Part shown: positions 36,439-51,505 of the stretch, one piece after another | Layout of the letters: every line of letters begins with the position of its first letter | How positions within the stretch are numbered: the stretch's first letter is position 1 | Origin: Nocardia alba NBRC 108234 | Lineage (GTDB): Bacteria > Actinomycetota > Actinomycetes > Mycobacteriales > Mycobacteriaceae | Reading direction: 5' to 3' | Assembly: GCF_001612665.1 (NCBI RefSeq) | Contig: NZ_BDAX01000002.1 | Span: 186,001 to 250,000, forward strand | Length of the DNA: 64,000 nt | Made by a program: the position numbers and the translations under genes | The notes under the pieces: generated by a model | What the model was told of the DNA's origin: nothing | Databases searched by the model: none | The model's input: the letters and a program-made list of their open reading frames with translations, nothing else

Positions 36439-38151
36439 ATGTCTACAGCTGTGGATTTCGCCGCCAGGCTCATCGAACCGCGCGCGATCGTCGCGGCCGG
36501 CCATTCGGCGGTACTCGCCTACATCTCGCCGAGTAGGCCGGGCGCGAACTTCGGCGCCAAACCGATCACCGCCGACTACGCTCGCGCGCTCACCGCCGCC
36601 GGGCTCGACATCGTCTCCATCTGGCAATACGGCAAGCCCGGCGACGCGACCCCCTCGGACTGGACGACCGGCTACGACGGCGGACGCCGGATGGCCGAAC
36701 AGGCGTTGGCCACCCACCTGAGCGTGGGCGCGCCTCGACACGCACCGATCTTCTTCGCCGTCGACGAGGATATCTCGCTGTCGCAGTGGAACAGCACGGC
36801 CGTGGAGTTCTTCCGTGGCGTGAACTCGGTGCTGGGCAGCGCCTGGACCGGGATCTACGGGCACGCGCGGGTATGCGCGTGGGCGATCGAGGACGCAGTG
36901 GTCGGCGCGCGAGGACAATTCAGCTGGGCGTGGCAGACCCGGGCCTGGTCGGGAACCGAACGCGAACCACGCGCGGTGCTCTACCAACGCGTGATCGACA
37001 CCCCGAGCAACCCCGGACCGATCATCGACAGCACCCGCGTCGACGTCAACGACATCCTCGCTCCCGACTTCGGTCAGTGGGCGCTCGATCGGTCGGTATC
37101 GGTGCCGCCGTTCACCGAGATCGACCGGCTCGGACCCTCGCATTCCTCGCGCGAAGGCGCCCGCATCACCAATTTCCTGTTGCACACCCAGGAAGGTAAC
37201 GGGACCGCCGAATCCCTTGCCGCCTACCTGAACAACCCCGCCAACGGTGTGTCCTACCACTACACGCTGCGCGACGCGGTGGTGGTGCGGGTGGTACCGG
37301 AGGAACTCGCGTCCTGGTCGGTGCTCTCGGCGAATCCTTTCACGGTGAATCTGTGCTTCGCGGGCAGCCGCATCGCCTGGTCGCGCGCGCAGTGGCTGGC
37401 CATCGACGGTGATCTGCGGATCGCGGCGTATCTGGCTGTGCGCAGCGCGCAGCGGCACGGGTACTCGACCGAGGTGATCGAGCCGGATTACCACGTCGGC
37501 GACGGGATCTCCGACCATCGTTACGTCACGAGAGCACTCGGCATCGGCTCGCATACCGATGTGGGCCCGAACTTCCCGTGGGATGTGTTCGCCGCCCACG
37601 TCGCCTCGTTCGTCGGCGCGACCGAACCGACCGCGATCGATCTGCGCGCCGCCGCATCCCCCTGGCTGGGCGCACGCCGCACCACCGGCGAACTCAGCAC
37701 ACCGGACGGGGTGGGACGGTTCGCCGAGTTCGAGCACGGCCATGTGTATTGGCATCCGAGTACCGATGCCCACGCCGTCCCGACCGCGATCATGGACAAG
37801 TACGCGGAGTTGGAATGGGAGACAGGCCCCCTGGGATATCCGACCGCCGAGCACACCGAACTGCCCGATCCGCAAGGTTCGGGTCCCGGGCTGGCGCAAA
37901 CGTTTCAGGGTGGCGCCGTCTACCGGCGCGCCGCGCAACCCGCGTACTGGGTGCACGGCGCGATCGGCGCGCGATGGGCGGCGGCCGGTCACGAGAACGG
38001 CGAGCTCGGCTGGCCCGCTTCCGATGAGACCGCCCACGATGACGGGGTCTATCAGTCGTTCGAGTTCGGCCGGATCTACTGGGTGCCCGAACAGATCGTC
38101 GCACTGCGTAATTCCGGCGAGCCCGACACCCCGCTGTCCCGGCCCGCCTGA
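36439..38151 (+). CDS. Endolysin-like protein: DUF1906 glycosidase-like, amidase and LGFP repeats
   Basis: 570 residues in three modules. Residues 1-215 are a DUF1906/Rv2525c-type TIM-barrel (VDFAARLIEP, SIWQYG, PIFFAVDEDIS). Residues 235-395 resemble N-acetylmuramoyl-alanine amidase type 2, with possible zinc histidines in FLLHTQEGNG and GSHTDVGPNFPWD. Residues 405-560 hold about three LGFP repeats (GPLGYPTAE, GELGWPASDE, FGRIYW) that bind mycolic-acid cell walls. There is no signal peptide, as in phage endolysins. AGGGGG precedes ATG 36439. It may be a domesticated lysin or a cell-wall remodelling enzyme; no other phage genes adjoin it. Confidence 0.8.
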   Translation: MSTAVDFAARLIEPRAIVAAGHSAVLAYISPSRPGANFGAKPITADYARALTAAGLDIVSIWQYGKPGDATPSDWTTGYDGGRRMAEQALATHLSVGAPRHAPIFFAVDEDISLSQWNSTAVEFFRGVNSVLGSAWTGIYGHARVCAWAIEDAVVGARGQFSWAWQTRAWSGTEREPRAVLYQRVIDTPSNPGPIIDSTRVDVNDILAPDFGQWALDRSVSVPPFTEIDRLGPSHSSREGARITNFLLHTQEGNGTAESLAAYLNNPANGVSYHYTLRDAVVVRVVPEELASWSVLSANPFTVNLCFAGSRIAWSRAQWLAIDGDLRIAAYLAVRSAQRHGYSTEVIEPDYHVGDGISDHRYVTRALGIGSHTDVGPNFPWDVFAAHVASFVGATEPTAIDLRAAASPWLGARRTTGELSTPDGVGRFAEFEHGHVYWHPSTDAHAVPTAIMDKYAELEWETGPLGYPTAEHTELPDPQGSGPGLAQTFQGGAVYRRAAQPAYWVHGAIGARWAAAGHENGELGWPASDETAHDDGVYQSFEFGRIYWVPEQIVALRNSGEPDTPLSRPA

Positions 38152-38155
38152 GCGG

Positions 38156-38341
38156 TCAGGCCAGCAGGATCGCGAGGGTGGTGGCGCCGGCGCTCAGTAG
38201 CAGCGCCACCACCACGCAGATCGCGATCAGTCGCGTCCGTGAGGTGGGTCCGGTGTAGGTTTCGTCGGCGTTCAGCATGGCGTCGATGTCGATGGCGGCG
38301 AACTCACGCGTGGATTCGAGAGGGCCGGGCTGCTCGGTCAT
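38156..38341 (-). CDS. Small single-pass membrane protein
   Basis: 61 residues from ATG 38341. A hydrophilic, acidic N-terminus (AAIDIDAMLNADETY) is followed by one hydrophobic helix (LIAICVVVALLLSAGATTLAILL) at the very C-terminus, a tail-anchored layout. It starts 10 bases after the stop of the coiled-coil gene on the same strand, so the two probably form an operon. No family recognised. The long overlapping minus-strand frame that contains it is a shadow of the coiled-coil gene. Confidence 0.6.
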   Translation of the reverse strand: MTEQPGPLESTREFAAIDIDAMLNADETYTGPTSRTRLIAICVVVALLLSAGATTLAILLA

Positions 38342-38351
38342 GTGCGTGACG

Positions 38352-39509
38352 CTAGTCCAGGTCGCCGCGCACCGTCGCCGATACCCCACTCGTGGTCGCG
38401 GCAGCCGGGGTGCGGGCGGTGGCGAGGAGTTCGTCGAGCTGCGCCTCCGCGCGTTGGGCACGGGCCAGCGTTTGCTTGCGGGCGTCGTCGAGTGCGGCCC
38501 ACCGCTGCTCGGCTTCGGTGCGCAATTGTGCGAGTGCGGCCGCCGCTTCGTCGCGACGCTGCTGGGTTTCGGTGGCGGTGGTGCGGCGCAGCTCGGTGAG
38601 TTCGGTGCGGGTGCGATCGAGTTCGCCGCGCGCGGTGTCCAGGTCGGTGCGGGCCCGTCGCCACTCCTCGCGGGCTTCGGCGGCGGCCTCCACTCGTTCG
38701 GCGGTGGCTTGCTCGGCGCGTTCGGTGGCACGGTCGGCGTCGGCGGCGCGCTGGATCGCGAGGTCGCGTTCGGCGGTCGCGGCCGCGATCCTGGCCTCGG
38801 CATCGCGGCGGTGATGGGTGATCTCGGAGTCGGCGCGCTGCTGGGCACGGGCCACAATGTCGTCGGCTTCTTGTTTCGCCGAGTCGATCTCGTCGGCCGC
38901 GTGTTGTCGGGCGGCCCGCACCTGTGCCTCGGCATCGCTGCGGGCCGCGAACACATCGTCGGAAGCCTGGCGGGTGAGCGCGTCGACCGAGGCCACGACT
39001 TCGTCCCTGGCCGCGAGCGCTTCCCCGACTGCCTGCTCAGCCTGTTCCGCGGCCGCCACCGCCTCTTCGGCCACCGATTCCGCCAGCGCGCGAGCCTCTT
39101 CGGCCTCGCGCCGCGATTGTTCGGCTGCCACTGTCGCCATCTCCGCCTCGGCGATCCGTCGGGCAGCGTCGGCTTGGACCGCCTGGACCTGCGCTTCGGC
39201 CACCGACGGATCGCCGATAGTCTGCAGCTCGGCGACCGCCGCGTTCAACGTGGTCCCCAATTGCTCGGCCAGCCCACGGAACTGCCCGAGCAGCTCGTCG
39301 GCCCGCAACCGCGCCACTGTCACCGGCCCTTGAGTCGTCACAGTGACGGCCGCAGTGGCACCGTCGGACTCCTGTTGCTGCCGTTGCCTTTCCCGCCACG
39401 CCCGCCATCGCGTGTGATCGGGATGATCGCAGTATTCGGAGGGGCGACCCGGCCCACCGGCGCGGGTGATCGGACGGGCACAGCCCGGATAGTTGCATAC
39501 GCTCGACAC
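38352..39509 (-). CDS. KfrA-like coiled-coil protein with N-terminal Cys/His motif
   Basis: 385 residues. The first 35 residues contain CNYPGCARPI and EYCDHPDHTRW, four or five potential zinc ligands. From about residue 95 to 365 the protein is nearly continuous Ala/Glu/Arg/Gln coiled coil (EEARALAESVAEEAVAAAEQ). This resembles KfrA-type plasmid and chromosomal DNA-binding architectural proteins, which have a DNA-binding head and a long alpha-helical tail. GTG 39509 is preceded by TACGAT and six bases, a leaderless layout. Repeated ACGAAAC heptamers upstream may be its own binding sites. Function is inferred. Confidence 0.65.
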   Translation of the reverse strand: MSSVCNYPGCARPITRAGGPGRPSEYCDHPDHTRWRAWRERQRQQQESDGATAAVTVTTQGPVTVARLRADELLGQFRGLAEQLGTTLNAAVAELQTIGDPSVAEAQVQAVQADAARRIAEAEMATVAAEQSRREAEEARALAESVAEEAVAAAEQAEQAVGEALAARDEVVASVDALTRQASDDVFAARSDAEAQVRAARQHAADEIDSAKQEADDIVARAQQRADSEITHHRRDAEARIAAATAERDLAIQRAADADRATERAEQATAERVEAAAEAREEWRRARTDLDTARGELDRTRTELTELRRTTATETQQRRDEAAAALAQLRTEAEQRWAALDDARKQTLARAQRAEAQLDELLATARTPAAATTSGVSATVRGDLD

Positions 39510-39527
39510 CGGAGAATCGTAGCGTTT

Positions 39528-39721
39528 GTTTCGTCACAATCACACGTAATGCACGAAACGAAATGCGTGTCGCCCCTTCGGGAGCCGAATTCGTCCGGCC
39601 GTGGTCTGACCCCCGATAAGTGAACATTATCGGAGGTCAGGCCAGAAGATAGTTTCGAGTGAACGCGGATGATTTACGTTTCCGTTTGGTCGCACTCTAC
39701 GAAACGAAATAGCTACGAAAC
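39528..39721. promoter_or_regulatory. Cluster of ACGAAAC heptamers upstream of the KfrA-like gene
   Basis: ACGAAAC occurs at 39553-39559, 39699-39705 and 39715-39721, and inverted as GTTTCGT at 39528-39534. Two copies are part of the 12-mer ACGAAACGAAAT. A related form ACGTTTCCGTTT is at about 39676-39687. The spacing and mixed orientation resemble iterated binding sites for a DNA-binding or partition-like protein. Confidence 0.55.
39603..39643. repeat. Long inverted repeat (17-bp arms) between divergent genes
   Basis: GGTCTGACCCCCGATAA (39603-39619) and TTATCGGAGGTCAGGCC (39627-39643) pair at 15 of 17 positions around a 7-base loop. No T-run follows and both flanking genes are transcribed away from it, so it is not a terminator. 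It may be an operator, a cruciform or the trace of a mobile element. Confidence 0.65.
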
Positions 39722-39945
39722 TGGGTGAAAACTGTGCACCCCTGCACGGACGTACCGTTTCCGGGCAGTCGCTGCACCACCGTCGGCACCACGCTCGAAT
39801 TCGCCTGATCTTGCGCAGTTCGGCTGCCCGGACTACATCACCGGCCAACTCGCCCTTCGCGCGACTCGGCTCGGTTTCGTCGCCGATTCCTCTGGCGGCC
39901 GACCTCCGCTTCGGGTACGACTGGAGCGGAACAGAGGGGGAAACT

Positions 39946-40737
39946 GTGCGGGAATCCACGAGCGCGACACCGGCGATCGGGCAACGGGCGGGTGAGCGGC
40001 GCGTGCGGTCCACCGAGGAATGGCTGGCCTATTTCCGGCTGAACGCGCGGCGACAGCGCAAGATTCCGTGGCAATCGAGCGGGGTCGCGGCATCACCGGC
40101 CGAGCTGGCACCCCTGCGCCGGTCACTGCAGGCGTGGCAGCTCGGCGAAACATCGGATGGCCGACACCTGGCGGCGTCGGCCGACCGATTCGCCGCGGCC
40201 ACCGGCGATCCCGCGTATCGCGAAGTCATCGACCTGTTCATCCGTGAGGAGCAACGCCATGGCGCGCTGCTGGGTCGCATCCTGGATGACGCGGGAATCC
40301 CACGGCGACAGGCTGATTGGGGCGATACGCTCTTTCGCAGGCTTCGGTACAGCATCACCGACATCGAGGTCTGGACCACCCCGGTCGTCATGGTCGAAGT
40401 CCTGGCGATGATCTATTACAACGCGATCCGTCGGGCTACCGGATCACCGGTCCTGCGCGCGGTCTGCGCCCAGATCCTCGCCGACGAGGTGCCGCATGTG
40501 CAGTTGCAATGCGAGCGGCTCGCGGTCCTTTTCCGGCACCGATCCCGTACCCGCTACCGCGCCACCATGCTCGCCCACCGTGTTCTGTTCCTCGCGGTCA
40601 TGCTCCTGGTGTGGGTCGGCCACCATCGCGCGCTGCGCTCCGGCGGCTACAGCTGGACGCACTACCGCCGGGCCGCCTACGCCAAAATGAACCGCGCGTG
40701 GCAACGCATGGATCCACAACGCTACGTCTGGACCTGA
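39946..40737 (+). CDS. Ferritin-like diiron-type protein
   Basis: 263 residues. Two E-x-x-H motifs stand in separate helices, IREEQRHGALL (about 103-113) and ILADEVPHVQLQ (about 183-194), the usual ligands of a dinuclear iron site in the ferritin-like superfamily. A hydrophobic stretch (VLFLAVMLLVWVGH) is near residue 220. GTG 39946 follows AGAGGGGG by about six bases, so the upstream ORF extension is rejected. The oxidation substrate is unknown. It could be an oxygenase or a fatty-acid-modifying enzyme. Confidence 0.65.
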   Translation: MRESTSATPAIGQRAGERRVRSTEEWLAYFRLNARRQRKIPWQSSGVAASPAELAPLRRSLQAWQLGETSDGRHLAASADRFAAATGDPAYREVIDLFIREEQRHGALLGRILDDAGIPRRQADWGDTLFRRLRYSITDIEVWTTPVVMVEVLAMIYYNAIRRATGSPVLRAVCAQILADEVPHVQLQCERLAVLFRHRSRTRYRATMLAHRVLFLAVMLLVWVGHHRALRSGGYSWTHYRRAAYAKMNRAWQRMDPQRYVWT

Positions 40738-40872
40738 TTCCGCCCGCCGTGTTCTCGACGGGATCGGCCGCGCGCATCGGCCCGCTTTCGGAGGGTGTCG
40801 GCGCGCGGCCGAACACCGCACCGAGTCACCCTCCGCGGCTGTGACCAGTTAGTTCAGGGCCTGCCGGAAGTT

Positions 40873-41547
40873 CTAGGCGGTGTCGAACGGCTTCGAGGAT
40901 TCGGCGGCGGCTTCGAGGTCGTCGATGGTGCCGGACATGATCGCCGGGATGTGCGCGGTGATGCGCTCGGCGGGCCAGTCCCACCACGCGACGGCCAGCA
41001 GGCGGGCGATGTCGCGGTCGTCGAAGCGGGTTCGGATGAGGCGGGCCGGATTCCCGCCGACGATGCCGTAGTCGGCGACATCGCCGGTGACGACGGAACC
41101 GGTGCTGATGATGGCGCCGTGTCCGATCCGCACGCCGGGCATCACTGTCACGCCGTTGCCGAACCAGACGTCGTTGCCCACGACGGTGTCGCCCCGGCCG
41201 GGCAAGCCGACGAGCAGGTCGAAGTGGTCCGACCAGGAGCCGCCCATGGTGGGGAACGGGAAGGTCGAGGGTCCGTCCATCCGGTGGTTGGCCCCGTTCA
41301 TGATGAACCGCGTACCGGTGCCCAGCGCACAGAACTTCCCGATGATCAGTTTCTCGGGACCGTAGTGGTAGAGGACATTGCGGGTTTCGAAGGCGGTCGC
41401 GGCGTCGGGATCGTCGTAGTAGGAGTAGTCACCGACCTCGATGAGCGGCGAGGTGACCAGCGGTGCCAACAGCACCACGCGCGGTTGGCCGGGCATCGGA
41501 TGCAACACCGTGGGGTCGGCGGGAACAGGCGAGCGATCGTGCGACAC
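40873..41547 (-). CDS. CatB/Vat-like hexapeptide-repeat O-acetyltransferase
   Basis: 224 residues from GTG 41547, which has AAGGAG seven bases upstream. Left-handed beta-helix hexapeptide repeats run from about residue 70 to 165. The xenobiotic acetyltransferase pattern appears in YHYGPEKLIIGKFCALGTG, MNGANHRMDGPSTFPF (the catalytic His loop) and VVGGNPARLIRTRF. Family members acetylate chloramphenicol, streptogramins or endogenous sugars. Chromosomal actinobacterial forms are often of unknown substrate, so drug resistance should not be assumed. Confidence 0.88.
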   Translation of the reverse strand: MSHDRSPVPADPTVLHPMPGQPRVVLLAPLVTSPLIEVGDYSYYDDPDAATAFETRNVLYHYGPEKLIIGKFCALGTGTRFIMNGANHRMDGPSTFPFPTMGGSWSDHFDLLVGLPGRGDTVVGNDVWFGNGVTVMPGVRIGHGAIISTGSVVTGDVADYGIVGGNPARLIRTRFDDRDIARLLAVAWWDWPAERITAHIPAIMSGTIDDLEAAAESSKPFDTA

Positions 41548-41852
41548 AGCGGAACTCCTTCTTCGCAGGGGCGTACGCGGGCATCGCGGCCGATGTCGGA
41601 TCGGGTGGCGGCGGACGTCGGGATCATCGTCGAGCGCGGCGAACTGCTCGCCCGCGTCGCCGCACGCGCCCCGTTGATCGTTGCCGCCCCGGTCTATCAC
41701 TATCCGGTCCCGCTTCGCACGCACACCGCGCGGCTGCCGACGCTACCCTTGCCGCAGCCGCACGCGTGTTCACCCGCCAGGCGATCCTTGTCGCGGTGGA
41801 CGAGGTGGTGCGCGCATGGCCTCGGGCGCACCACCTCGCTGTTCGCCGGGCG
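41548..41852. other. Gap without a convincing gene
   Basis: About 305 bases. Plus-strand frames are open (for example from ATG 41594) but show no family resemblance, and switching frames does not give a better protein. A decayed gene is possible but cannot be supported. Confidence 0.4.
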
Positions 41853-42497
41853 CTAAACGAGGGTTGCGTGGCCGATGGTGACGTTGCCGTACAGGTTCCG
41901 TGCGACAACCTGGACGGTCGCGCCGCCCTCGGGCGACCCCTCGATCGGTTCCAGCCGGTTCAGCACACTGCCGCGCAGCGCGTTGGCTTCCAGCCGTGCC
42001 GCGCTGCCCGGCCGGATCCCCACCTCGAGATCGCCCATCGAGGTGTCCAGTCGCAGCACCCCGCGCACCGCGTCGTCGACACGGATGTCGCCCTTGGCGG
42101 TCTTCGCGGTCACCGAGCCACCCGGGCGCTCGATGACGATGTCACCGGCGCTGACCTCCAGGTCGCACCCGCTGAATTCGCCCGCGATCCTCAGCCGTCC
42201 CATCGCGAGGGTCGCGTCGAGAGCGGAACCGATCGGCACCTCGACGGTCACCGAGACCGACGGGTTGCCACCGAACGGGGTGAAGGACTTCCACTTCTTC
42301 GGAGCCTCGACCGTCAGCTTGCCATCGGTGAACTCGGCGCGAATCTGTTCGGCGGCACGAACGTCGGCCTTGCTGGAGGTATCGGCCGGTAGGACCACAA
42401 CTACGGTGTCGGTTCGGTCGGAGGCGACCACGGCCACTTCGCCGCTGGGCACGTTGACGGCGACGGTGATCGGCTGCGGTGTCTGGAAAGTAGGCAT
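41853..42497 (-). CDS. DUF4097 beta-strand-repeat protein
   Basis: 214 residues, almost entirely short beta strands with repeated turns (GDIVIERPGGSVTAKTAKGD, then LRLDTSMGDLEVG), the DUF4097 putative-adhesin-like solenoid. No signal peptide or membrane helix is visible, so it is probably cytoplasmic. AAGGAG precedes ATG 42497. A longer frame continuing upstream merely reads the opposite frame of the oxidase gene. In other genomes DUF4097 genes pair with small DNA-binding regulators. None is adjacent here, although the promoter carries two strong dyads. Confidence 0.8.
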   Translation of the reverse strand: MPTFQTPQPITVAVNVPSGEVAVVASDRTDTVVVVLPADTSSKADVRAAEQIRAEFTDGKLTVEAPKKWKSFTPFGGNPSVSVTVEVPIGSALDATLAMGRLRIAGEFSGCDLEVSAGDIVIERPGGSVTAKTAKGDIRVDDAVRGVLRLDTSMGDLEVGIRPGSAARLEANALRGSVLNRLEPIEGSPEGGATVQVVARNLYGNVTIGHATLV

Positions 42498-42520
42498 CTG
42501 CGCTCCTTGGTTGCGGGTCG

Positions 42521-42578
42521 TGTACGTAGATGTATACGTACATCGTGTGCCATCACTATAAGTACATGTATACGTATA
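42521..42578. promoter_or_regulatory. Two 22-bp dyad operators in the DUF4097 promoter
   Basis: TGTACGTA-GATGTA-TACGTACA (42521-42542) has perfect 8-bp arms. TATAAGTA-CATGTA-TACGTATA (42557-42578) has 7 of 8 paired. They share the ATGTATACGTA core and start 36 bp apart. A minus-strand -10 TATAGT (42560-42555) touches the second box and TTGCGC at 42585-42580 is a possible -35. Confidence 0.75.
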
Positions 42579-42610
42579 GCGCAACCGTGGGTTTTCCCCG
42601 ACGCGACAGA

Positions 42611-43129
42611 TCAGGGCGCGAGCCTGGCGATATCGGGCGCGTAGACGGTCATCCAGTGCGGACGCAGGCGGTAGTAGACGACGTCGTTGTCCCAGTCGAA
42701 GGCGCCGCCGCCGTAGAAGTCCTGGAAGTACGCGAGTAGCTCCGGCCAATCGGCGGCGGGCTCGCCGTCCAACGGGTTGAGAATCTCGACTGTGCCGTGC
42801 GTGAACACGCCCAGGTCCTCGCCGCGCAGGTGCGCGACGCTGGCGGCAGGCCTGACCGCGAGGTGGCGGGCCTTCGCGGCAGCGCGCGCCGTGCCGAAGT
42901 GCCATCGGCCGCGCAGGAAATGCCCGTCCGCCCCGCTGATCCGCGGTTCGCCATTCGCCGTCACCGTCGACAGCGCCAGGGTGCACATCCCGGTGAGGGT
43001 CTGGGTCAGCTGCTCTGCCGTCAGCGTGTTCTCGGCGTCGATGATCGAGCGCAGGTGCGCTGTCGAACCGGTGAGCGAGGCGTCGAGGAGTGCCTGAAGC
43101 TCTGCGAGGTCTTCCGGAGTTTCCCGCAA
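42611..43129 (-). CDS. Pyridoxamine 5'-phosphate oxidase-like flavin-binding protein
   Basis: 172 residues. The split-barrel fold is supported by MCTLALSTVTANGEPRISGA (about 48-67) and FGTARAAAKARHLAVRPAAS, typical of FMN- or F420-binding PNPOx-like proteins. The start is TTG 43129, because no ATG or GTG is in frame before the conserved part and the codon falls just before the helix. The substrate is unknown. It is downstream of the epoxide hydrolase on the same strand with a 70-base gap. Confidence 0.8.
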   Translation of the reverse strand: MRETPEDLAELQALLDASLTGSTAHLRSIIDAENTLTAEQLTQTLTGMCTLALSTVTANGEPRISGADGHFLRGRWHFGTARAAAKARHLAVRPAASVAHLRGEDLGVFTHGTVEILNPLDGEPAADWPELLAYFQDFYGGGAFDWDNDVVYYRLRPHWMTVYAPDIARLAP

Positions 43130-43200
43130 GGAAGTGCCCTGTCTGTCGTGGGGTGTCGATCAGTGGTTCCCATCCTCGTCCGAAACCTTGACACCTTGTG

Positions 43201-44283
43201 TCAGCTTTTCTCTAGGCTGTTCAGGAAGAACTCCCGAATGTCGGCGGCGAGCAGGTCGGGCACCTCCATCGCGGCGAAGTGACCGCCGCGGTCGAACTCC
43301 GACCAGTGCCTGATGTCGTAGAGCTGTTCGGCCAGCGGGCGCACCGACTGGGTGATGTCGTGGGCGAAGACTGCGACGCCGAGGGGTACCGGGCACGGCT
43401 CGGCGCCCCTGGCGGACTCGCGATGCAGACGGGCCGAGGACGCCGCGGTGGCGGTGAGCCAGTACAGGGAGACGTCGGTGAGCATCCGGTCGTCGCTGAT
43501 CGGCGAGCGTGGGTCGGTCCAGTGCGCGAACCGTTCGGCGATCCAGGCCAGTTGGCCGACGGGCGAATCGGTGAGCGCGTAGCCGATGGTCTGTGGGGTG
43601 GTGGCCTGCAGTGCCTGGTAGGGCGGCCGATTCGCCATCAGCTGCTTGACCTTGCCGAGGCGCGCCTCATCGGCTTCGGAGAGTTCGATATCCGGGTTCG
43701 GCCGCGTCGGCAGGTAGTTGACGTGAACGCCGACAACGTTGTCCGGTGCCACCGCCCCGAGCGCCTGGGAGATGCCCGAGCCGAAGTCGCCACCTTGGGC
43801 GCCGTAGCGCTCATAGCCCAGGCGCCGCATCAATTCGGCCCAGGCGCGCGCTACCCGCGTGATATCCCAGCCGCGCTCGCTGGTCGGTCCGGAGAAGCCG
43901 TAGCCCGGGATCGACGGGATCACCAGATGGAAGTCGCGCGACAGCGGTTCGATCACGTCGAGGAATTCGAGGAAGGAGCCGGGCCAGCCGTGGGTGAGGA
44001 TCAGGGCGAGCGCGTCAGGCTTCGGCGAGCGGACATGGACGAAATGGATTCTCTGGCTGTCGATTTCGGTGGTGAAGTGCGCGAGCTCGTTGAGGTTCGC
44101 CTCGTGCGCTCGCCAGTCGTAACCGGTGCGCCAGTATTCGGCGAGTTCTTTGAGCCGCGCCAGCGGGAAACCGTAGTCCCAGCCGGCGTCGGCGAGCTCG
44201 TTGGGCCAGCGGGTCCGGGCGAGGCGGTCGTTGAGGTCGTCGATATCGGCCTGGGGGATGTCGACGCGGAACGGCTCGATCAT
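43201..44283 (-). CDS. Epoxide hydrolase-family alpha/beta hydrolase
   Basis: 360 residues. An N-terminal EHN domain (FRVDIPQADIDDLNDRLART, WRAHEANLNEL) is followed by the alpha/beta core: oxyanion HGWPGSFLEF (about 97-106), nucleophile Asp in GAQGGDFGSGIS (about 167) and His in GGHFAAMEVPDLL. AAGGAG precedes ATG 44283 well. Enzymes of this type hydrate epoxides to diols. The substrate is unknown. Divergent MarR gene and an 18-bp-arm inverted repeat between them suggest induction by the substrate. Confidence 0.92.
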   Translation of the reverse strand: MIEPFRVDIPQADIDDLNDRLARTRWPNELADAGWDYGFPLARLKELAEYWRTGYDWRAHEANLNELAHFTTEIDSQRIHFVHVRSPKPDALALILTHGWPGSFLEFLDVIEPLSRDFHLVIPSIPGYGFSGPTSERGWDITRVARAWAELMRRLGYERYGAQGGDFGSGISQALGAVAPDNVVGVHVNYLPTRPNPDIELSEADEARLGKVKQLMANRPPYQALQATTPQTIGYALTDSPVGQLAWIAERFAHWTDPRSPISDDRMLTDVSLYWLTATAASSARLHRESARGAEPCPVPLGVAVFAHDITQSVRPLAEQLYDIRHWSEFDRGGHFAAMEVPDLLAADIREFFLNSLEKS

Positions 44284-44324
44284 GGTCTCAACTCCTTTGT
44301 CGGCCCAATGTTCGGGCAACTAAT

Positions 44325-44366
44325 GTTTGTGCCACCAACGATATCGCAATCGTTGGTGGCGCAAAC
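44325..44366. promoter_or_regulatory. MarR operator with 18-bp arms
   Basis: GTTTGTGCCACCAACGAT (44325-44342) and ATCGTTGGTGGCGCAAAC (44349-44366) pair at 17 of 18 positions around six bases. It lies between the divergent epoxide hydrolase and MarR genes and is followed by TAGAGT and the marR start. Confidence 0.8.
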
Positions 44367-44385
44367 GATTTGTTAGAGTTGTCAC

Positions 44386-44865
44386 ATGGAGCGCCCACAC
44401 CGACCGACCAGCTGGGAAACCCTGCCCACCTGGCTGCTCACCCACACCGCGAACCACGCCCACCGCCTGGTCAGCGAGGGTTTCGCCGCCGTCGACGCCC
44501 GTGGCTATCATTACCGGCTCCTGGCCGCCCTCGACGAGTTCGGCCCCGCCAGCCAAGCCACCCTCGGCCGGCGCAGCGGAATCCACGTCAGCGACATGGT
44601 CGCCACCATCAACGAACTCGCCGACCATGACCTCGTCGAGCGCACCCCCGACCCCACCGACCGCCGTCGCAACGTCATCACCCTCACCGCCCCGGGCAAA
44701 CGCCAACTCCGTCGCCTGGAAAAGCAACTCGCCCACAGCCAAGAAGAACTCCTCGAACCGCTCTCCCCCACCGAGCGAGACCAGCTGACGCACCTGCTGT
44801 CGACCCTGCTGAACCATCACAACCGGCGAACCGGCATCGACGACGAGCGGGCACCCCGAACCTAG
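44386..44865 (+). CDS. MarR-family transcriptional regulator
   Basis: 159 residues. The winged helix runs from about residue 55 to 105 (GPASQATLGRRSGIHVSDMV, then the wing DPTDRRRNVITLT). MarR dimers usually repress a divergent operon and release DNA on binding a phenolic or lipophilic ligand. TAGAGT lies six bases before ATG 44386 and no ribosome site is present, so a leaderless transcript is likely. The large dyad at 44325-44366 is its probable operator, controlling itself and the epoxide hydrolase. Confidence 0.92.
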   Translation: MERPHRPTSWETLPTWLLTHTANHAHRLVSEGFAAVDARGYHYRLLAALDEFGPASQATLGRRSGIHVSDMVATINELADHDLVERTPDPTDRRRNVITLTAPGKRQLRRLEKQLAHSQEELLEPLSPTERDQLTHLLSTLLNHHNRRTGIDDERAPRT

Positions 44866-44893
44866 GCGGTCGGCGCGAGGCGATCGGATGCCA

Positions 44894-45606
44894 TCACACC
44901 GCCAGCTCGCACACCAGCATCTCGTTCGCGCCCACCTGGAACTCGTACTCCACCCGCACAATCCGGCCCTCGATGCCCGACACCGACAGATCGGCGAGCA
45001 ACATCTCGAGTTGCGGATACCGCTGCGAGGAGCCGATCGGCATCAAGGGAAACAGCCGAATCTCGGAGGTAGCGACACGCGCCAATTCGATGATCGATTC
45101 GCGGTGGAAGGCGTAATCGAGGTCGTCGGCGTAGCTGAACAGCAGGTGGGAGCTCAGGACCAAATCGAAGGTGTTGTCGGCGAACGGCAGTGCGGGCAGC
45201 CTGCCTGGGACGTAGCGGTGCGGGAATGCTCGAGTGTCGGTGGCGAAGTGCTCGGCCGACTCGCGACGGGCGCGATGGTGTTCCCCGGGTCGGCGAAGAA
45301 AGTCCAGCGGTAAGCGTCGGCGTGCTCGCGCACATAGCGGTTGCCACGATCGGCCTCCGCGACCGCCGTCGCGGCGACCCGGTCGATACCACTGTCGAAA
45401 TAGGCTATGTCGCAGGCGGTGACATCACCGCCGCGGCGGCTGACCTCGGCGGCGAATCCGGCCGCACCACCGGGGCAGTCCAGAATCCGGCGCTCGAGAT
45501 CGTGGTCGGTGAGCGCGAACATCGCCTGGTACTCGCGCAGCGAGCGCGAGCTGACGAGAATCTCGCCGAAGCCACCGGTCCCCGGCGAGGTGTCGTTGTC
45601 GATCAT
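44894..45606 (-). pseudogene. SAM-dependent methyltransferase broken by a one-base frameshift
   Basis: From ATG 45606 (GGAAGGAC ribosome site) the frame reads FGEILVSSRSLREYQ, ILDCPGGAAGFAAEV (SAM motif I) and HADAYRWTFFADP, then leaves frame. The other frame supplies ESAEHFATDTRAFPHRYVPG, LPFADNTFDLVLSSHLLFSY and the C-terminus to 44894. Adding one G to the GGGG run at 45286-45283 joins both into a 237-residue methyltransferase of normal layout. The gene is 713 bases, exactly one short of a multiple of three. It may be a true pseudogene, or an error in the sequence. Confidence 0.8.
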
Positions 45607-45914
45607 GGTCGTCCTTCCATTCCGGGACCGCCCGTCAGGCCGGAACAGATGTCGTCACGACAGATCTGGCCGCCCTGGAGGCGGCCGAGCACAACTCGGT
45701 CAGCCGCTAGGTCAGCGGCCACCACAGTTGCGCGAACATCATCACCGGAAGATTGAACCACGCGAGAGTTCGCTCGAGTAGGAGATTTCCGCGCTCTGAC
45801 GGATCATGTGGCGGTGAATCAAGATCGATGGAGAACCCAGGCGACGGAATTCGCCGGCACGCTCGAGATCCGAATGCTGGTCCGGCACCTGGTCGTGATG
45901 ATCGGCGGCCCGAA

Positions 45915-46355
45915 GTGAGCCCGACCGAACTCGCGGCTGACCTGGATGAACGGCAGTTCGCCCGGTACGAATGCCCCTGCTGCGCCGAGCCGATCGAGCG
46001 CACCTGGAACATGATCACCCGCGACGGAATCGCCTACGCGGCGTACTTCGCCAACAGCTACCACCACACCGACCAAGCCCACGACACCTGGATCGACGTC
46101 ATCCTGGGGACCTGGGACTCCGAATCCGATGACGATCACGTAACTTTCGGTTGCCGCGTCGGCCCGGTACAGAGCAACCCGTCCCCCGCGGCGACCCTGG
46201 TCCAAGCATGCCTGGACGGATCCGCCGATGATGTACACGGGACGGTGCTCTCGCGAAGGGACGGCCTGGCCCACCCGCGCCTACCAGAATTCTGGGATGT
46301 CGTCGACTTCGTCCTGGCCAACGACCCGACCGTCACCGCTCACCTGTACGGGTAG
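45915..46355 (+). CDS. Conserved hypothetical protein with CPCC motif
   Basis: 146 residues from GTG 45915. It contains YECPCCAEPIERTWNMI near residues 19-35, then AYFANSYHHTDQAHDTWIDVILGTW and a C-terminal helix WDVVDFVLAND. The single CPCC could be half of a metal site, but no second cysteine pair is visible. The frame is open back to 45753, but that part is low-complexity and Arg-rich, and no ribosome site is evident for any start. No function can be assigned. Confidence 0.55.
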   Translation: MSPTELAADLDERQFARYECPCCAEPIERTWNMITRDGIAYAAYFANSYHHTDQAHDTWIDVILGTWDSESDDDHVTFGCRVGPVQSNPSPAATLVQACLDGSADDVHGTVLSRRDGLAHPRLPEFWDVVDFVLANDPTVTAHLYG

Positions 46356-46391
46356 CCAAGGGGTCATCCGGTGCGGATGACCCCGCGTGTA

Positions 46392-47513
46392 TCAGCCGAC
46401 TGGGCTGTGCCCCAACAGAACTCGCCCACTGAAACGAGTCTGCTTGGCGCGCGGCAACGGGTGGAACTGGCAGCCGTGGATATCGCGGTAGAGCCGTTCG
46501 AGGTCGCAGGCGCGGGAATAGCCCGCGCCGCCGGTGGCCTCGATGGCCAGCCGGACGGTGGTGATGAGCGCGTCGGCCGCGACAGTCTTGCGGCACAGCG
46601 CACGGGCGGCGTAGGTATCGGTGTTGGGGAAGTTCAGGTTCTCCGACGCGATGAACATGGCATCGATGAGGTCCTCGGCGGTGGTGTAGGCGTTGAGCAT
46701 CTCGCCCGCCGACTGCACCGTGTGGGCGTCGGACCGACCCTCCAGCAGACTCGCGGTGAGCTCGACAGCGGCGTCGGCGACCCCGAGGTAGGCGGCCAGA
46801 ACCAGGGGAAGAGCCGCGCCGATCACCACATTCAGCACCGGCGGCCACGGACCGGCCGGGCGGGTCATCGAGATCGCGGCATCCGGTACGAACACCTCGT
46901 CGAGCACGACCGTATGCGAACCGCTCGCCCGCAGACCGAACGAATCCCAGGTCTTGTCGATGCTCACCCCCGCGGCGGCCAACGGTATCGCGAAATGCAG
47001 CACCTCCCCGTCACAGCGAACACTGGTGACGAGCACGTCGCCCACCTCGCATCCACTCGCGGGCGCCTTGCGCGCGCTCACCCGACACCCACCATCCACG
47101 CGCACGGCCTGCCCGTTGGAATCGACCCAATCCGAGGCGCCGGTACTGACCAGAATCGCCCCACCGGCCACCTTCGCGAACACCGCCGAAGCATCCACCC
47201 CGTGGTTGTGCCGCCACACCTGCGCGGCTACCAGGTGCGAGTGCATCGCGAACGCGACCGCCGTCGACGGATCATGCCTGCCGAGTTCGCGCAGAATCTC
47301 CCCCATCTCCCGATGAGAGGCGCCCCCACCGCCGAACTCGACCGGCACGAGCGCCGCGGACAGACCGCTCGCCCGCAATCGATCGAACGCGGCGACCGAG
47401 ATCTCGCCGGTGCGGTCGCGCTCAGCGACCTCGAGTCGCAAGGTTTCACCGATCTCGCGGGCCACCGAAACCCGGTCGGTGCTGGACGTGGTGTCAGAAA
47501 TTGTGGAAGTCAT
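46392..47513 (-). CDS. Acyl-CoA dehydrogenase family flavoprotein
   Basis: 373 residues. N-terminal helices (AAFDRLRASGLSAALVPVEFGG), the middle beta domain (VLVTSVRCDGEVLHFAIPL, DSFGLRASGSHTVVLDEVFV) and the C-terminal helical domain ending GGAGYSRACDLERLYRDIHG are typical for acyl-CoA dehydrogenases using FAD. ATG 47513 is chosen because the upstream extension overlaps operator sequences. The divergent HxlR gene and two matching palindromes between them predict regulated expression. The acyl substrate is unknown. Confidence 0.9.
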   Translation of the reverse strand: MTSTISDTTSSTDRVSVAREIGETLRLEVAERDRTGEISVAAFDRLRASGLSAALVPVEFGGGGASHREMGEILRELGRHDPSTAVAFAMHSHLVAAQVWRHNHGVDASAVFAKVAGGAILVSTGASDWVDSNGQAVRVDGGCRVSARKAPASGCEVGDVLVTSVRCDGEVLHFAIPLAAAGVSIDKTWDSFGLRASGSHTVVLDEVFVPDAAISMTRPAGPWPPVLNVVIGAALPLVLAAYLGVADAAVELTASLLEGRSDAHTVQSAGEMLNAYTTAEDLIDAMFIASENLNFPNTDTYAARALCRKTVAADALITTVRLAIEATGGAGYSRACDLERLYRDIHGCQFHPLPRAKQTRFSGRVLLGHSPVG

Positions 47514-47547
47514 GTTTCGAAGGTAGGAAGCGCCGCGATAACCAGAT

Positions 47548-47585
47548 AGTCCAGAAAGTGGACTCTCCCGGTCCAGAAAGCGGAC
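47548..47585. promoter_or_regulatory. Two HxlR operator boxes
   Basis: AGTCCAGAAAGTGGACT (47548-47564) and GTCCAGAAAGCGGAC (47571-47585) share GTCCAGAAAG-N-GGAC with dyad arms GTCC/GGAC. They start 22 bp apart, two helical turns, between the divergent acyl-CoA dehydrogenase and HxlR genes. Confidence 0.8.
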
Positions 47586-47630
47586 CCCGTCGATACGACG
47601 CAGGAGCAAACGCCGACCACCGAGGTGCCC

Positions 47631-48329
47631 ATGACGATCACGACCGCAGGCTACGGCCAGTACTGCCCCATCTCCCGCGCTCTCGACGTGCTCGGCGAGC
47701 GGTGGTCGTTGCTCATCCTGCGCGACCTGTTCCTCGGCACCACCCGCTTCAACGACCTCGCGCGCGGCCTACCGGGCCTGTCGCGCAGCCTGCTCGCCAA
47801 ACGGCTGCGTCAGTTCGAACGCGCCGGACTCATCGACAAAATCGGCGCCGATCACCTGCTCACCGAAGCGGGCAGCCAACTCGAACCCATCCTGTTCGGC
47901 CTCGGCGAATGGGGCGCGCGCTGGACCTTCGGCGCACCACAGGAGGAAGAACTCGACGCCGCCCTGCTCGTGTGGTGGATGCACACCCGCGTCGACACCT
48001 CGATGCTGCCCGGCAGACGGCAGGTGCTGCACGTCCGGTTCACCGACGACGTTCGCCGCTTCTGGATCGTGATCGAAAGCGCGGTGCCGTCGGTGTGCGA
48101 GACCGATCCCGGCTACCCCGTCGACGTCACGATCAGCGCGGATGTCGCCGGACTCTACGAGGTGTGGTTGGGGCGCATGCCGCTCACACACGCGCAACGC
48201 ACGGGACGGATCACCTTCACCGGCCCGGCCGCGCTGACCCGCCGCATGCCCGCCGTGTTACGGCTGAGTCCGGTGGCCGGCTACGTCGCGACCACGGCCC
48301 ACCCGGAACAACGGACCCGCGCGTCGTGA
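47631..48329 (+). CDS. HxlR-family regulator with C-terminal extension
   Basis: 232 residues, nearly twice the common HxlR length. Residues 8-95 are the winged helix (YCPISRALDVLGERWSLLIL, RSLLAKRLRQFERAGLI), with a cysteine at position 11 that in some HxlR proteins senses electrophiles or disulfide stress. Residues 110-220 form a second domain with an SCP2-like pattern. ATG 47631 is given; GTG 47625 is alternative. Divergent from acyl-CoA dehydrogenase and preceded by two operator boxes. Confidence 0.88.
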   Translation: MTITTAGYGQYCPISRALDVLGERWSLLILRDLFLGTTRFNDLARGLPGLSRSLLAKRLRQFERAGLIDKIGADHLLTEAGSQLEPILFGLGEWGARWTFGAPQEEELDAALLVWWMHTRVDTSMLPGRRQVLHVRFTDDVRRFWIVIESAVPSVCETDPGYPVDVTISADVAGLYEVWLGRMPLTHAQRTGRITFTGPAALTRRMPAVLRLSPVAGYVATTAHPEQRTRAS

Positions 48330-48347
48330 GACGAAAAGTACTGCCGC

Positions 48348-48899
48348 TCAGCTCGATACAGCCCGCCCGGCGATTTCCATCGCCCAGCGGTACAACGCTA
48401 CCGGATCTCCCAGCGTCGCTCGCGCTTCAGGTCGCGTGAGAACGCCGTTCGCCGCGGACAACAGGTCGTAGAGGTTCAAATGCACCCACTCCCACAGCAT
48501 GCTGTCGAAGTTGTAGGACATCATCGCCCGTTCGACGCGACCACGGATCTCGACGATCTCCTGCGCGGCGAGTCCCACCCCGAGCAACCGCGCTTCGGTC
48601 GCCCGCTGGTCCTCGTCATCGAACCAGGTGTCGAGAAACGGTTCGAGCAGATCAGCCCAGACATCGAGGCGCCGTCGCACCGCGATCGTGTTGCGTCGGC
48701 AGAAATCGTCGAGCGCGGGTCGATGCTCGGCGTGCACGAACAGCATTTCACCGGTGACGGTACGCAGGTGTGGGGGTATCGCGCCCGGATCGGCTTCGGT
48801 GATCGCCGATACCTCGATCACCCCGTCGGGGTACACCAACGCGCCCGCGAAAGGGTAGTCGACGAAACGAATCTCCGTGTCGGCGATGTCCACCTGCAT
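48348..48899 (-). CDS. Hypothetical helical protein
   Basis: 183 residues from ATG 48899 (GTG 48902 adjacent). Begins MQVDIADTEIRFVDYPFAGA with short beta strands, then is mainly helical (NFDSMLWEWVHLNLYDLLSA). No signal peptide, no membrane helix and no recognised family. It is convergent with the HxlR gene. The upstream 130 bases are AT-rich and shared with the leaderless small gene at 49029, so both are transcribed outward from one promoter region. Confidence 0.6.
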   Translation of the reverse strand: MQVDIADTEIRFVDYPFAGALVYPDGVIEVSAITEADPGAIPPHLRTVTGEMLFVHAEHRPALDDFCRRNTIAVRRRLDVWADLLEPFLDTWFDDEDQRATEARLLGVGLAAQEIVEIRGRVERAMMSYNFDSMLWEWVHLNLYDLLSAANGVLTRPEARATLGDPVALYRWAMEIAGRAVSS

Positions 48900-49028
48900 C
48901 ACTCCATGATGTCGAGTCGAACACGCTCCGACCGGGCGTCATGAACAATATGGAACAAAACGTGTCGGTCATCACTACTTGTCACGTCATGTTGGCAGCC
49001 GCCGTAATCAAAACGTTAGGATTCGACC

Positions 49029-49268
49029 ATGGTGCGTACCGGAGCAGTAACCTCACAGCCGTACGAGCCGAATGCTTCACTGCCCCAACATCATCCAGCG
49101 CGCCTCGAACTCGTCAGCGAAGCCGCGGGCGCCCCTCCGGCACCAGCCGCGGAGGTCGACGACAACTTCCCGCGCCTCGGCGACACCAGCTTCCTCACCG
49201 GCGCGGCCCGACACCGCCTCGCCGCCTACATCCACACCCAGCTCGCCGAACTCGAAGAGATGCCCTGA
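49029..49268 (+). CDS. Small protein encoded upstream of a recombinase
   Basis: 79 residues, beginning MVRTGAVTSQPYEP and ending in a helix (GAARHRLAAYIHTQLAELEE). TAGGAT lies six bases before ATG 49029, a leaderless layout, with TTGGCA 19 bases farther upstream. It precedes the tyrosine recombinase by 75 bases on the same strand. No family recognised. A partner or regulator of the recombinase is a guess from position only. Confidence 0.5.
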   Translation: MVRTGAVTSQPYEPNASLPQHHPARLELVSEAAGAPPAPAAEVDDNFPRLGDTSFLTGAARHRLAAYIHTQLAELEEMP

Positions 49269-49343
49269 CAGCGCGCCGATGGCATAAGCTGCGACGCCGG
49301 TAACCATCGGCGACAGCGGCGATTCACCCGAGGAGATGCGAGC

Positions 49344-50546
49344 TTGAGCGACGCAGCGGTGGTGCTTCCCGAGCAAGTCCGCACCGAACTGCGGCGCGGA
49401 GTGCGCAGCGTCCTCGTCGACACCGCCGCCCTGCGCCTGGTCCGCGAACGCTTCGACGACACCCAGGCAGGCGCGCTGCGCCGCTACCTCGAAGCGTCCC
49501 AATCGGCGAACACCCTGCGCGCCTACCGCACCGACTGGATCGCCTGGGCAGGCTGGTGCGCGGCCGAACACCGACAGGCACTGCCCGCCGATCCACTCGA
49601 CGTAGCCGTCTACATCGCCGCCTCCGCCGACGCCCGACGAGGAAACGGCACATGGGCATTCAGCCCCGCCACCCTGGACCGCAAGTCCGCCGCCATCGCC
49701 GCGGTCCACGCCGCCAACGGACTTCCCTCCCCGACCCGCTCCGACGTCGTCCGGCTCACCCTGCGTGGCATCCGCCGCACTCGACGCACCCCGCCGACCC
49801 GCAAACGACCGGTCCTGCTGCACACCCTCGACCAGCTGCTCGCCGAACTCCCCGAACCCGGCTGGCCCACCGAACCCGCACGCCGCCGCGACAGGCTGGC
49901 ACTGCTGGTCGGCTTCGCCGGCGCACTGCGCCGCAGCGAACTCGCGGGCCTGCGCATCGGCGACGTGCACGCGCGCACCGACCACACCACCGGCGAACCA
50001 CTGCTCGTCGTCCACCTACCGACCACGAAAACCGACCCGACCGGTGTCGCCGAACAGCGCATCGCCCTGCCCCGTGGCAAACACCCACGCACCTGCCCGA
50101 TCTGCGCGTTCGCCGACTGGGTCCGGCTCCTGGAAATCCGCGCCGACACCGGCGACACCGGCACCCGATCCTGGACAACCGACAACCTCGCCACCGACCC
50201 CACGATCCACCGCTGCCACGGCTTCACCGGAACCCGGCTCAGCACCGACTCGGACCGGCCACTGTTCCCCACCATCAACCGGCACGGCTCGATCGGCGAC
50301 TCCGCACTGTCGGGCCGAGCCGTCGCCGAGCTCGTCAAGCGCTACGCGGCCCGCGCCGGCCTCGACCCCGACCTGTTCTCGGGACACTCCCTGCGCGCCG
50401 GCTTCGCCACCCAGGCCGCCCTCGGCGGCGCCAGCGACCGCGAGATCATGCGCCAGGGCCGCTGGGCCAACCCCCGCACCGTGCACGGCTACATCCGCAC
50501 CGCGAACCCCCTCGAAGACAACGCCGTCACCAAACTCGGCCTCTGA
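49344..50546 (+). CDS. Tyrosine recombinase / integrase
   Basis: 400 residues. The catalytic Arg is in AGALRRSELAGL (about 196), the H-x-x-R in SGHSLRAGFATQAA and the final W/H and Tyr in RWANPRTVHGYIR. The N-terminal SAM-like domain is NTLRAYRTDWIAWAGWC. TTG 49344 follows GAGGAG and starts just before the conserved part. A CPIC motif sits in an insertion near residue 250. Such integrases catalyse site-specific insertion or excision. No att site, tRNA or intact element is visible nearby, so it may be a stranded integrase or a stand-alone recombinase. Confidence 0.92.
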   Translation: MSDAAVVLPEQVRTELRRGVRSVLVDTAALRLVRERFDDTQAGALRRYLEASQSANTLRAYRTDWIAWAGWCAAEHRQALPADPLDVAVYIAASADARRGNGTWAFSPATLDRKSAAIAAVHAANGLPSPTRSDVVRLTLRGIRRTRRTPPTRKRPVLLHTLDQLLAELPEPGWPTEPARRRDRLALLVGFAGALRRSELAGLRIGDVHARTDHTTGEPLLVVHLPTTKTDPTGVAEQRIALPRGKHPRTCPICAFADWVRLLEIRADTGDTGTRSWTTDNLATDPTIHRCHGFTGTRLSTDSDRPLFPTINRHGSIGDSALSGRAVAELVKRYAARAGLDPDLFSGHSLRAGFATQAALGGASDREIMRQGRWANPRTVHGYIRTANPLEDNAVTKLGL

Positions 50547-50733
50547 ATCCGCGCTCAGGATCGGTCCGCGGCGCTTAGCCCTCCCCATCCGGCTAGCGGA
50601 AGACGCCGTCACCGGCGACGCAATCAGCGGCGGACAGCTCGGCCTCGGCGCGGGCGCGGTCCGTGCCCACTGGGGGTCCAAGTAGCATCCGCCGAAAATC
50701 GGGCGGATATGGCGTAGTTGCTGGTCCAGGTCA

Positions 50734-50908
50734 TCAATTCGGGGATGGCGCTGGGCGGTCGAGGTGGCGGTAGATGGTTTTGCGGGAGACGCTGAACGTT
50801 TCGGCTATCTGAGCGACCGTGTAGCGGCATTTGCCGTGTCCGTCGGTTTCGTCATGCATCTGGCGTGCTTTGAACGCCTGCAACTCCGTCAGTGCTCGCC
50901 GGGCGCCG
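50734..50908 (-). pseudogene. C-terminal remnant of a serine recombinase
   Basis: The last 55 codons of a minus-strand frame read GARRALTELQAFKARQM, then YTVAQIAETFSVSRKTIYRH, the helix-turn-helix that ends resolvase/invertase-type serine recombinases. No catalytic domain precedes it; the upstream frame is antisense-like noise. It is a truncated mobile-element relic, 190 bases beyond the end of the tyrosine recombinase. Confidence 0.7.
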
Positions 50909-51046
50909 ACAGACCGGCACGCCCTGCAGTCAATCCGAGTCCTCCCCGTCCGTGTAGGCCCCGGCCTGGACGAACTACTGTCGGGGTCGGGGGCCAACAC
51001 GGCTGCTCGCGGGACGCACTGTTGGTACTGCGCCGTAGCCGCATGG

Positions 51047-51505
51047 TCAGTCCGAGGCGACGTGATCCTGGTACTGATCGACAAGGTGCCGGTAGAAGCC
51101 ATTACTCGGGTCCTGAATCGAGATGGGCCGCAGACCGAGGCTGACGTGCCCTCCAACCGCAGTCGAGTACCCGTCCCTGTCGACTCCGAGATCGGCCACA
51201 ATCGCTTGCGTCAGTTCGTCTAGCTCGGCATCGGTCGCGTAGACGGCCAGGCTGCATTCGACTGGCAAGGTCGACGGGTCGATATTCTCTCCGAACGCCC
51301 TCTGCGCGAATGCCGCGATCTCGATGGATGGACCGTACTCGGTGTAGCAGGGAATGCGGTTCACCCCGCGGACGCGGTGAGCACTCTCCTCGAGAGCTCG
51401 TGCGATCGGGGGGATTTCTTCGCTGTCGACGGAATCGTGCGTCGTCGTTCCTGGCCCCAGGCCGACCACGATCTGCCAGACCGAGCGGTCATCGTCGTCG
51501 TCCAT
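51047..51505 (-). CDS. Hypothetical acidic protein
   Basis: 152 residues from ATG 51505, which has AGAAGGG at good distance; ATG 51523 is upstream in frame. Starts MDDDDDRSVWQIVVGLGPG, has an IARALEESAHRVRGVNRIP helix and ends QYQDHVASD. No signal peptide or membrane helix and no family recognised. Its start overlaps the end of a small possible ORF on the same strand. Confidence 0.55.
   Translation of the reverse strand: MDDDDDRSVWQIVVGLGPGTTTHDSVDSEEIPPIARALEESAHRVRGVNRIPCYTEYGPSIEIAAFAQRAFGENIDPSTLPVECSLAVYATDAELDELTQAIVADLGVDRDGYSTAVGGHVSLGLRPISIQDPSNGFYRHLVDQYQDHVASD

Follow-up and report, generated by a model that had tools for sequence, protein, structure and literature searches.

In Nocardia, a gene for a coiled-coil protein, a palindromic DNA site and a gene for a Cre-like tyrosine recombinase form a conserved trio. 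The three parts are linked, are present and lost together across the genus, and lie near the replication terminus, with the site in close to single copy. This linkage, and the placing of the site near the end of replication, suggest a second system for separating copies of the chromosome. We think it probable, with considerable room for doubt, that a recombinase and its site, of plasmid type and served by a KfrA-like accessory protein with a zinc head, were domesticated as a module at the terminus beside XerCD/dif. A sequence-only reading of the same DNA had proposed a coiled-coil protein that binds repeated heptamers with its head, polymerizes through its tail and is anchored to the membrane by a small partner. 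That interpretation was half right, and the larger module is the finding: that reading did not include the palindrome (39606-39640) or draw a link to the recombinase gene (49344-50546).

Components of the module

The window analyzed here is a stretch of 64,000 nucleotides from Nocardia alba NBRC 108234 and belongs to contig C2 of a genome of 7.28 Mb. It contains the following features.

38156-38341, minus strand: membrane ORF, 61 aa, with a C-terminal hydrophobic stretch, 10 bp after the coiled-coil gene
38352-39509, minus strand: coiled-coil coding sequence, GTG start, 385 aa, Cys/His head and long helix
39516-39521, minus strand: TACGAT, resembling a -10 hexamer and invariant in 21 aligned loci; the GTG follows 6 bp later
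39528-39559, no strand assigned: proximal heptamers in a conserved block, GTTTCGT at 39528-39534 and ACGAAAC(GAAA) at 39553-39559
39606-39640, minus strand: palindromic core with 14-bp arms and the 7-bp spacer TGTTCAC (minus strand), proposed to be the target of the recombinase
39674-39740, no strand assigned: distal arm, conserved in alignments, with heptamers at 39699-39705 and 39715-39721
49344-50546, plus strand: Cre-like tyrosine recombinase of 400 aa, 9.7 kb away from the palindrome; listed with a TTG start, the true start being uncertain

The coordinates given earlier for the coiled-coil gene and the membrane ORF were correct, and the build described for the coiled-coil protein, a Cys/His head followed by a long coiled coil, agreed with both sequence and AlphaFold2 model. 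Residues C5, C10, C27 and H32 of the head were invariant in 19 homologues and suggest that it binds zinc. In the model, a small head of short strands and one helix, bearing the Cys/His residues, is joined to a single long helix spanning residues 101-365, much of it at pLDDT >90. The gene looks coding (NG86 dN/dS 0.13-0.27, 5 pairs). Searches with coiled coil and head against Pfam, NCBIfam, PHROGs and PDB sequences gave nothing convincing, with no Pfam family above cut-off. The sole hint was a weak match of the head to PHROG HNH endonucleases (E 0.009), and a fold search with the head model returned a single, meaningless match.

The KfrA proteins of RA3, R751 and RK2 are described as having an N-terminal head, a long helix and a repeated operator at their own promoter, with five 9-nt repeats overlapping the kfrA promoter (PMC7783346). 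The KfrA-like build proposed for the window protein was recovered in all these respects: a head, a long alpha-helical tail (101-365) and iterated repeats at a promoter-like region, which by their sequence could serve as an operator. In contrast to KfrA, the protein is chromosomal and has a Cys/His head with no N-terminal helix-turn-helix, and no sequence match between the two was found. We propose that the 385-aa protein may be both a heptamer-binding accessory protein and an autorepressor.

As had been claimed, four ACGAAAC heptamers lie upstream of the gene in both orientations, at 39528(-), 39553(+), 39699(+) and 39715(+); a fifth is at 39874(-). The heptamer occurs 16 times in the whole window against 5.56 expected from dinucleotide shuffles, none of 100 of which reached 16. 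Three further copies fall within 733 bp at 18407-19139. A named-genome collection yielded 234 coiled-coil relatives, and the best 80 of the 234, all from Nocardia, were retained as named loci. At these loci an average of 2.55 heptamers fell within 330 bp upstream of the gene, compared with 0.030 in 4256 control windows from the same 80 loci; eight of the 80 had none. Upstream alignments showed a conserved block of ~240 bp comprising the distal heptamer arm, the palindrome, the proximal heptamer arm and TACGAT. On the minus strand, ACCAAACGGAAACGTAA and GGTGCACAGTTTTC border the distal-arm heptamers. TACGAT next to the GTG is consistent with a leaderless promoter that the heptamers would overlap. 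This footprinting suggests that the head binds the heptamers.

The recombinase matched the Phage_integrase catalytic domain (PF00589) above cut-off at E 1.7e-11. Among solved structures Cre (1crx) was closest at E 3e-15, and XerD matched weakly at 1e-4. In the alignment with 1crx, the window motifs LRRSE, TKT, SGHSLRAG, GRW and GYIR stood opposite the Cre motifs and reproduced the R, K, HxxR, W, Y pattern, which in Cre is made up of the catalytic residues. Its dN/dS of 0.10-0.15 (six pairs) indicates purifying selection, as for the coiled-coil gene.

Two neighbors complete the local picture. A ferritin-like protein (39811-40737, plus strand) has weak, below-cut-off matches to Ferritin_2 and EncB-type encapsulin cargo, and a single protein beside the module (36439-38151, plus strand) combines an Rv2525c-like glycoside-hydrolase domain with LGFP repeats.

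Distribution in the genus and position relative to dif

The palindrome pattern CCGATAANGTTCACTTATCGG occurred in 54 of 59 genus genomes: 52 had a single copy, and G024 and G033 had two each; a reversed control pattern matched in none of the 59. A coiled-coil orthologue was present in 54/59 at E <= 1e-80, and a match of any kind in 58/59 at E <= 1e-3. The recombinase was detected in 56/59 at E <= 1e-20 and was whole in 54, the same 54 that carry the palindrome (Fisher p 2e-7, kinship ignored). In the other five genomes the three parts were missing, broken into fragments or perhaps truncated by the assembly. G012, G025 and G036 lack all three, so the module is dispensable. In G028 the recombinase is split into three, with a frame change for the central piece; the coiled-coil match is likewise fragmented, and the spacer lacks one base. 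These indel-like defects could be real decay or assembly errors. In G054, an assembly of 1340 contigs, the recombinase is cut at a contig edge. Divergences of the recombinase and of the coiled-coil protein were correlated (Spearman 0.84, 51 genomes, kinship ignored).

The arrangement of the parts varies. Recombinase and coiled-coil gene are divergent across the palindrome in several genomes (e.g. G003, G014, G030, G052). With the pMpar-1 recombinase as query, one clear relative was found in the terminus region of each of 11 palindrome-bearing Nocardia, 0.1-115 kb from the palindrome; five palindrome-negative genomes gave weak matches or pieces only. Linkage, shared presence and the plasmid analogues described below point to the palindrome as the sequence on which the recombinase would act.

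With dnaA as zero, the palindrome lay at 0.456-0.512 of the way round the chromosome in 8 genomes, a position that fits the chromosomal DNA role proposed earlier. We considered whether the palindrome is itself dif, and rejected this identity. The palindrome did not match the actinobacterial dif consensus, and a separate dif-like site (<=1 mismatch) occurred once in each of 12 genomes, 11-908 kb away. The F. alni dif sequence and its use for Nocardia farcinica are given in PMC3025954, which states that no actinobacterial dif had been experimentally confirmed. The 908-kb case is G023, with the palindrome at 0.456 and dif at 0.580. In G038 and G047 the GC skew switched near dif, not at the palindrome. 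Palindrome or gene was oriented towards dif in 12/12 genus genomes and in 9/9 of a second set drawn from the genus and family f14, which may be Pseudonocardiaceae. Orientation was set aside as a sign of selection, since inversions spanning dif preserve it automatically. In G210 the coiled-coil gene, 14 kb from dif, points away from it.

Relatives beyond the genus and alternative readings

Across 298 genomes of the order, the palindrome (<=2 mismatches) was present in 11, namely 7/7 of the genus, 0/48 other members of the family and four of f14. The coiled coil at E <= 1e-12 was found in 24/298: seven of the genus, one other family member, seven of f14, eight of f16 and one of f15. In the seven f14 genomes, gene or palindrome lay 14-43 kb from dif, and in four of them the palindrome was about 80-160 bp upstream of the coiled-coil gene. 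The recombinase followed the palindrome: all four f14 coiled-coil genomes with a palindrome had it (67-72% identity) and none of the three without did (p 0.029). Elsewhere the coiled-coil gene was 793 kb from dif (G344, f16) or on a different contig from it (G196).

In one alternative, the coiled-coil protein is an autoregulated KfrA-like organizer or segregation protein that marks the terminus alone, with recombinase and palindrome an old neighbor doing a separate job. It is favored by three f14 genomes (G330, G275, G287), where the coiled coil lies 14-21 kb from dif with neither palindrome nor recombinase. Five plasmid homologues from the Arthrobacter group point the same way: TTTCGT/ACGAAA arrays stand in front of their start codons and a core palindrome is lacking, as is also true of the G053:C2 copy. 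Near four of the five plasmid homologues, at a few kb or less, an AAA ATPase is annotated, which we read as ParA-like. Because the coiled coil occurs without its partners in these f14 genomes and on plasmids, it has a role of its own. Against the protein acting alone, all three parts are present and lost together in the genus. In addition, heptamer-like sequence adjoins one side of the palindrome where the stretch examined contains no coiled-coil gene, namely 12 kb of a Nocardia sp. NBC_00511 plasmid and 20 kb of G024 contig C19. We regard this alternative as unlikely.

The same relatives divide the earlier claim that the head binds the repeats. Arrays precede even distant plasmid homologues, of which two share 34-35% identity with the window protein, and the hexamers are also present in G231 and G210; this speaks indirectly for the claim. 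The exact hexamer was absent upstream of the homologues in 8/8 f16 and 6/7 f14 genomes, which speaks against it. Related GTTNCGT/TTACGTTA-like words occur upstream there, which points to drift of the site or to a looser link.

Relatives of the recombinase and of the palindrome occur on many plasmids, as would be expected if the palindrome were an attachment site and the recombinase an integrase domesticated from an earlier integrative element or plasmid. A blastn search with the palindrome found plasmid relatives, many at weak E-values. Support for the pairing of recombinase and site in the favored reading came from the three Methylocystis plasmids examined, where the gap between a similar palindrome and a gene for a tyrosine recombinase was 0.13, 0.13 and 0.8 kb (3/3). 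Protein searches gave 13 plasmid relatives of the recombinase, of which one was dropped and 12 scored. GATAA-N6-8-TTATC was found at 5/12 of these loci, at 4/12 of them 70-130 bp upstream of the recombinase, against an expectation of 0.04 in all 84.8 kb from mononucleotide shuffles; two of the five are both Pseudonocardia with the same spacer. The other 7/12 had no such palindrome. Both second copies of the palindrome in the genus are on other contigs. That of G033 is on a 5.5-kb contig (C19) with Rep-like and FtsK-like ORFs (by eye); it has no heptamers, and its spacer is identical to that on the G033 chromosome. Two exact copies on one contig, as the flanks of an insert would be, were seen in 0/59 genomes, and the site stays near the terminus. 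These points leave an attachment site quite unlikely. A phage origin was likewise rejected, with no exact palindrome in a viral collection and one weak match among phages.

The plasmid loci showed further features. On Rhodococcus, Pseudonocardia and Arthrobacter plasmids, a second recombinase-like ORF directly follows the recombinase gene (L203 5036-6064, L206 5092-6108, L205 5197-6249, L207 5053-5958); by eye it seems to lack the HxxR...Y end and is a possible inactive partner. On Methylocystis and Gluconobacter plasmids (L119, L330, L331, L332), condensin-like genes adjoin the recombinase, annotated as ScpB, with ScpA too on the Gluconobacter plasmid. One Frondihabitans strain carries the palindrome with the same spacer on two plasmids (L120 5008, L326 2255). 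One of these has a recombinase; on the other the palindrome is beside a ParA gene, with no recombinase annotated in the 10 kb examined, so that use in trans is possible.

A palindrome in the upstream region of a gene could also be an operator, a terminator or an RNA stem, with the heptamers regulating only the coiled-coil gene. The palindrome lies within 330 bp upstream of this gene at 72 of the 80 named loci. The free arm position was complementary in 40/72 loci compared with 20.9 expected under independence, so the symmetry is partly kept; for this reason a stem may exist. Yet the pair was broken in 32/72, and the spacer was nevertheless (T/G/C)GTTCAC in 70 loci, with TGTTTAC in one and GTGAACA, the exact reverse, in one. 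The reversed spacer, with unchanged flanks, is that of Nocardia sp. CNY236 (L266 659). No Rfam match was found in window positions 37500-51500, and an RNA element was rejected as an explanation. Purely local regulation is also hard to reconcile with the seven genomes (G042, G026, G007, G051, G021, G006, G039) in which the gene is separated from the palindrome by 2-87 kb or sits on another contig. Palindrome and heptamers persist in these genomes, and in 7/7 one or more exact heptamers fall no further than about 80 bp from the palindrome. In G020, where the distance is ~0.5 kb, there are only degenerate heptamers beside the palindrome. Together with the recombinase tracking the palindrome in f14, these observations make a regulatory element or stem highly improbable.

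The membrane ORF downstream of the coiled-coil gene exists as claimed and looks coding within its clade (NG86 dN/dS 0.17-0.33, 4 pairs), but it was found in 4/59 genus genomes and 8/80 named Nocardia loci. When small hydrophobic ORFs of any kind were sought directly downstream, 9/80 loci had one, and in seven of these it was this 61-aa protein. The ORF is clade-restricted and outside the conserved module. The earlier trio of head, polymerizing tail and membrane anchor depended on conservation of the membrane gene beside the coiled coil and was set aside because of these counts; despite the 10-bp spacing of the two genes in the window, a DNA-to-membrane tether is very improbable with the gene missing in 55/59 genomes.

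Proposed mechanism and relation to known systems

In the reading that we favor, the domesticated plasmid-type module, the one palindromic core would be the substrate of the Cre-like recombinase. The coiled-coil protein would bind the heptamer arrays on either side of that core through its zinc-type head and, like KfrA, would repress its own promoter. Once the site is present twice, on sister chromosomes or in a chromosome dimer, the coiled coils would pair or form filaments and join the sites, which would bias the recombinase towards resolution. The module would then be a second resolution system beside XerCD/dif. That resolution is its purpose is suggested by the terminus position, the near-single copy number and plasmid precedent. 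Against this reading, dif with XerCD already serves resolution, and the recombinase can be up to 115 kb from the site. Our confidence is limited by the failure of the heptamer link in f16 and most of f14, and by the chance that G028 is an assembly matter.

The known kinds to which the parts belong are tyrosine-recombinase resolution systems and KfrA-like proteins, and the module is a variant of both. It resembles Cre/loxP in recombinase sequence and palindromic core. The loxP spacer is 8 bp; here the spacer is 7 bp, and the site has accessory heptamers, a coiled-coil protein and a chromosomal, near-terminus position. MatP/matS and Tus/Ter each combine a terminus-located site with its own protein. 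In contrast to these, there is one site here rather than many scattered ones, and the proteins differ. The gene-next-to-site arrangement of the Methylocystis plasmids is that of Cre-like systems, and on rhizobial plasmids a Cre-like gene with a toxin-antitoxin is described beside repABC (PMC10194956). XerS/difSL and XerH/difH are described as using one recombinase and a site at the terminus that adjoins the gene in some genomes (PMC5357621). The module shares these traits, but here a canonical dif is also present and the recombinase is closest to Cre, with Xer weak. Plasmid cer/psi sites with ArgR/PepA combine a core, flanking accessory sequence and accessory proteins (PMC5357621), as the core, flanking sequence and candidate accessory protein do here. 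The differences are the dedicated coiled coil, accessory sequence on both sides and a site that is not the dif of XerCD. Searches of open-licence papers, judged by title and abstract opening, gave nothing on the palindrome, on a second Nocardia terminus recombinase or on the coiled-coil family.

A more far-reaching proposal, which we advance tentatively and as possible rather than probable, is that the terminus of Nocardia, and of some members of another family, is served by two resolution systems, XerCD/dif and one of the Cre/lox type domesticated from a plasmid. Synapsis would depend on a filament of the dedicated zinc-head coiled-coil protein, nucleated on the heptamer arms that surround the core. 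Such a system would perhaps suit filamentous, multi-genome cells, and resident plasmids would borrow the site.

If the module works as proposed, the chromosome would have taken over a plasmid maintenance system, and one near-terminus site would have been kept genus-wide beside XerCD/dif, sharing its inheritance and loss with its recombinase and a KfrA-like protein. An unnamed coiled-coil family would gain a testable role. One site and two proteins would make a small, defined system for coiled-coil control of recombination, and would give a handle on chromosome separation in filamentous actinobacteria.
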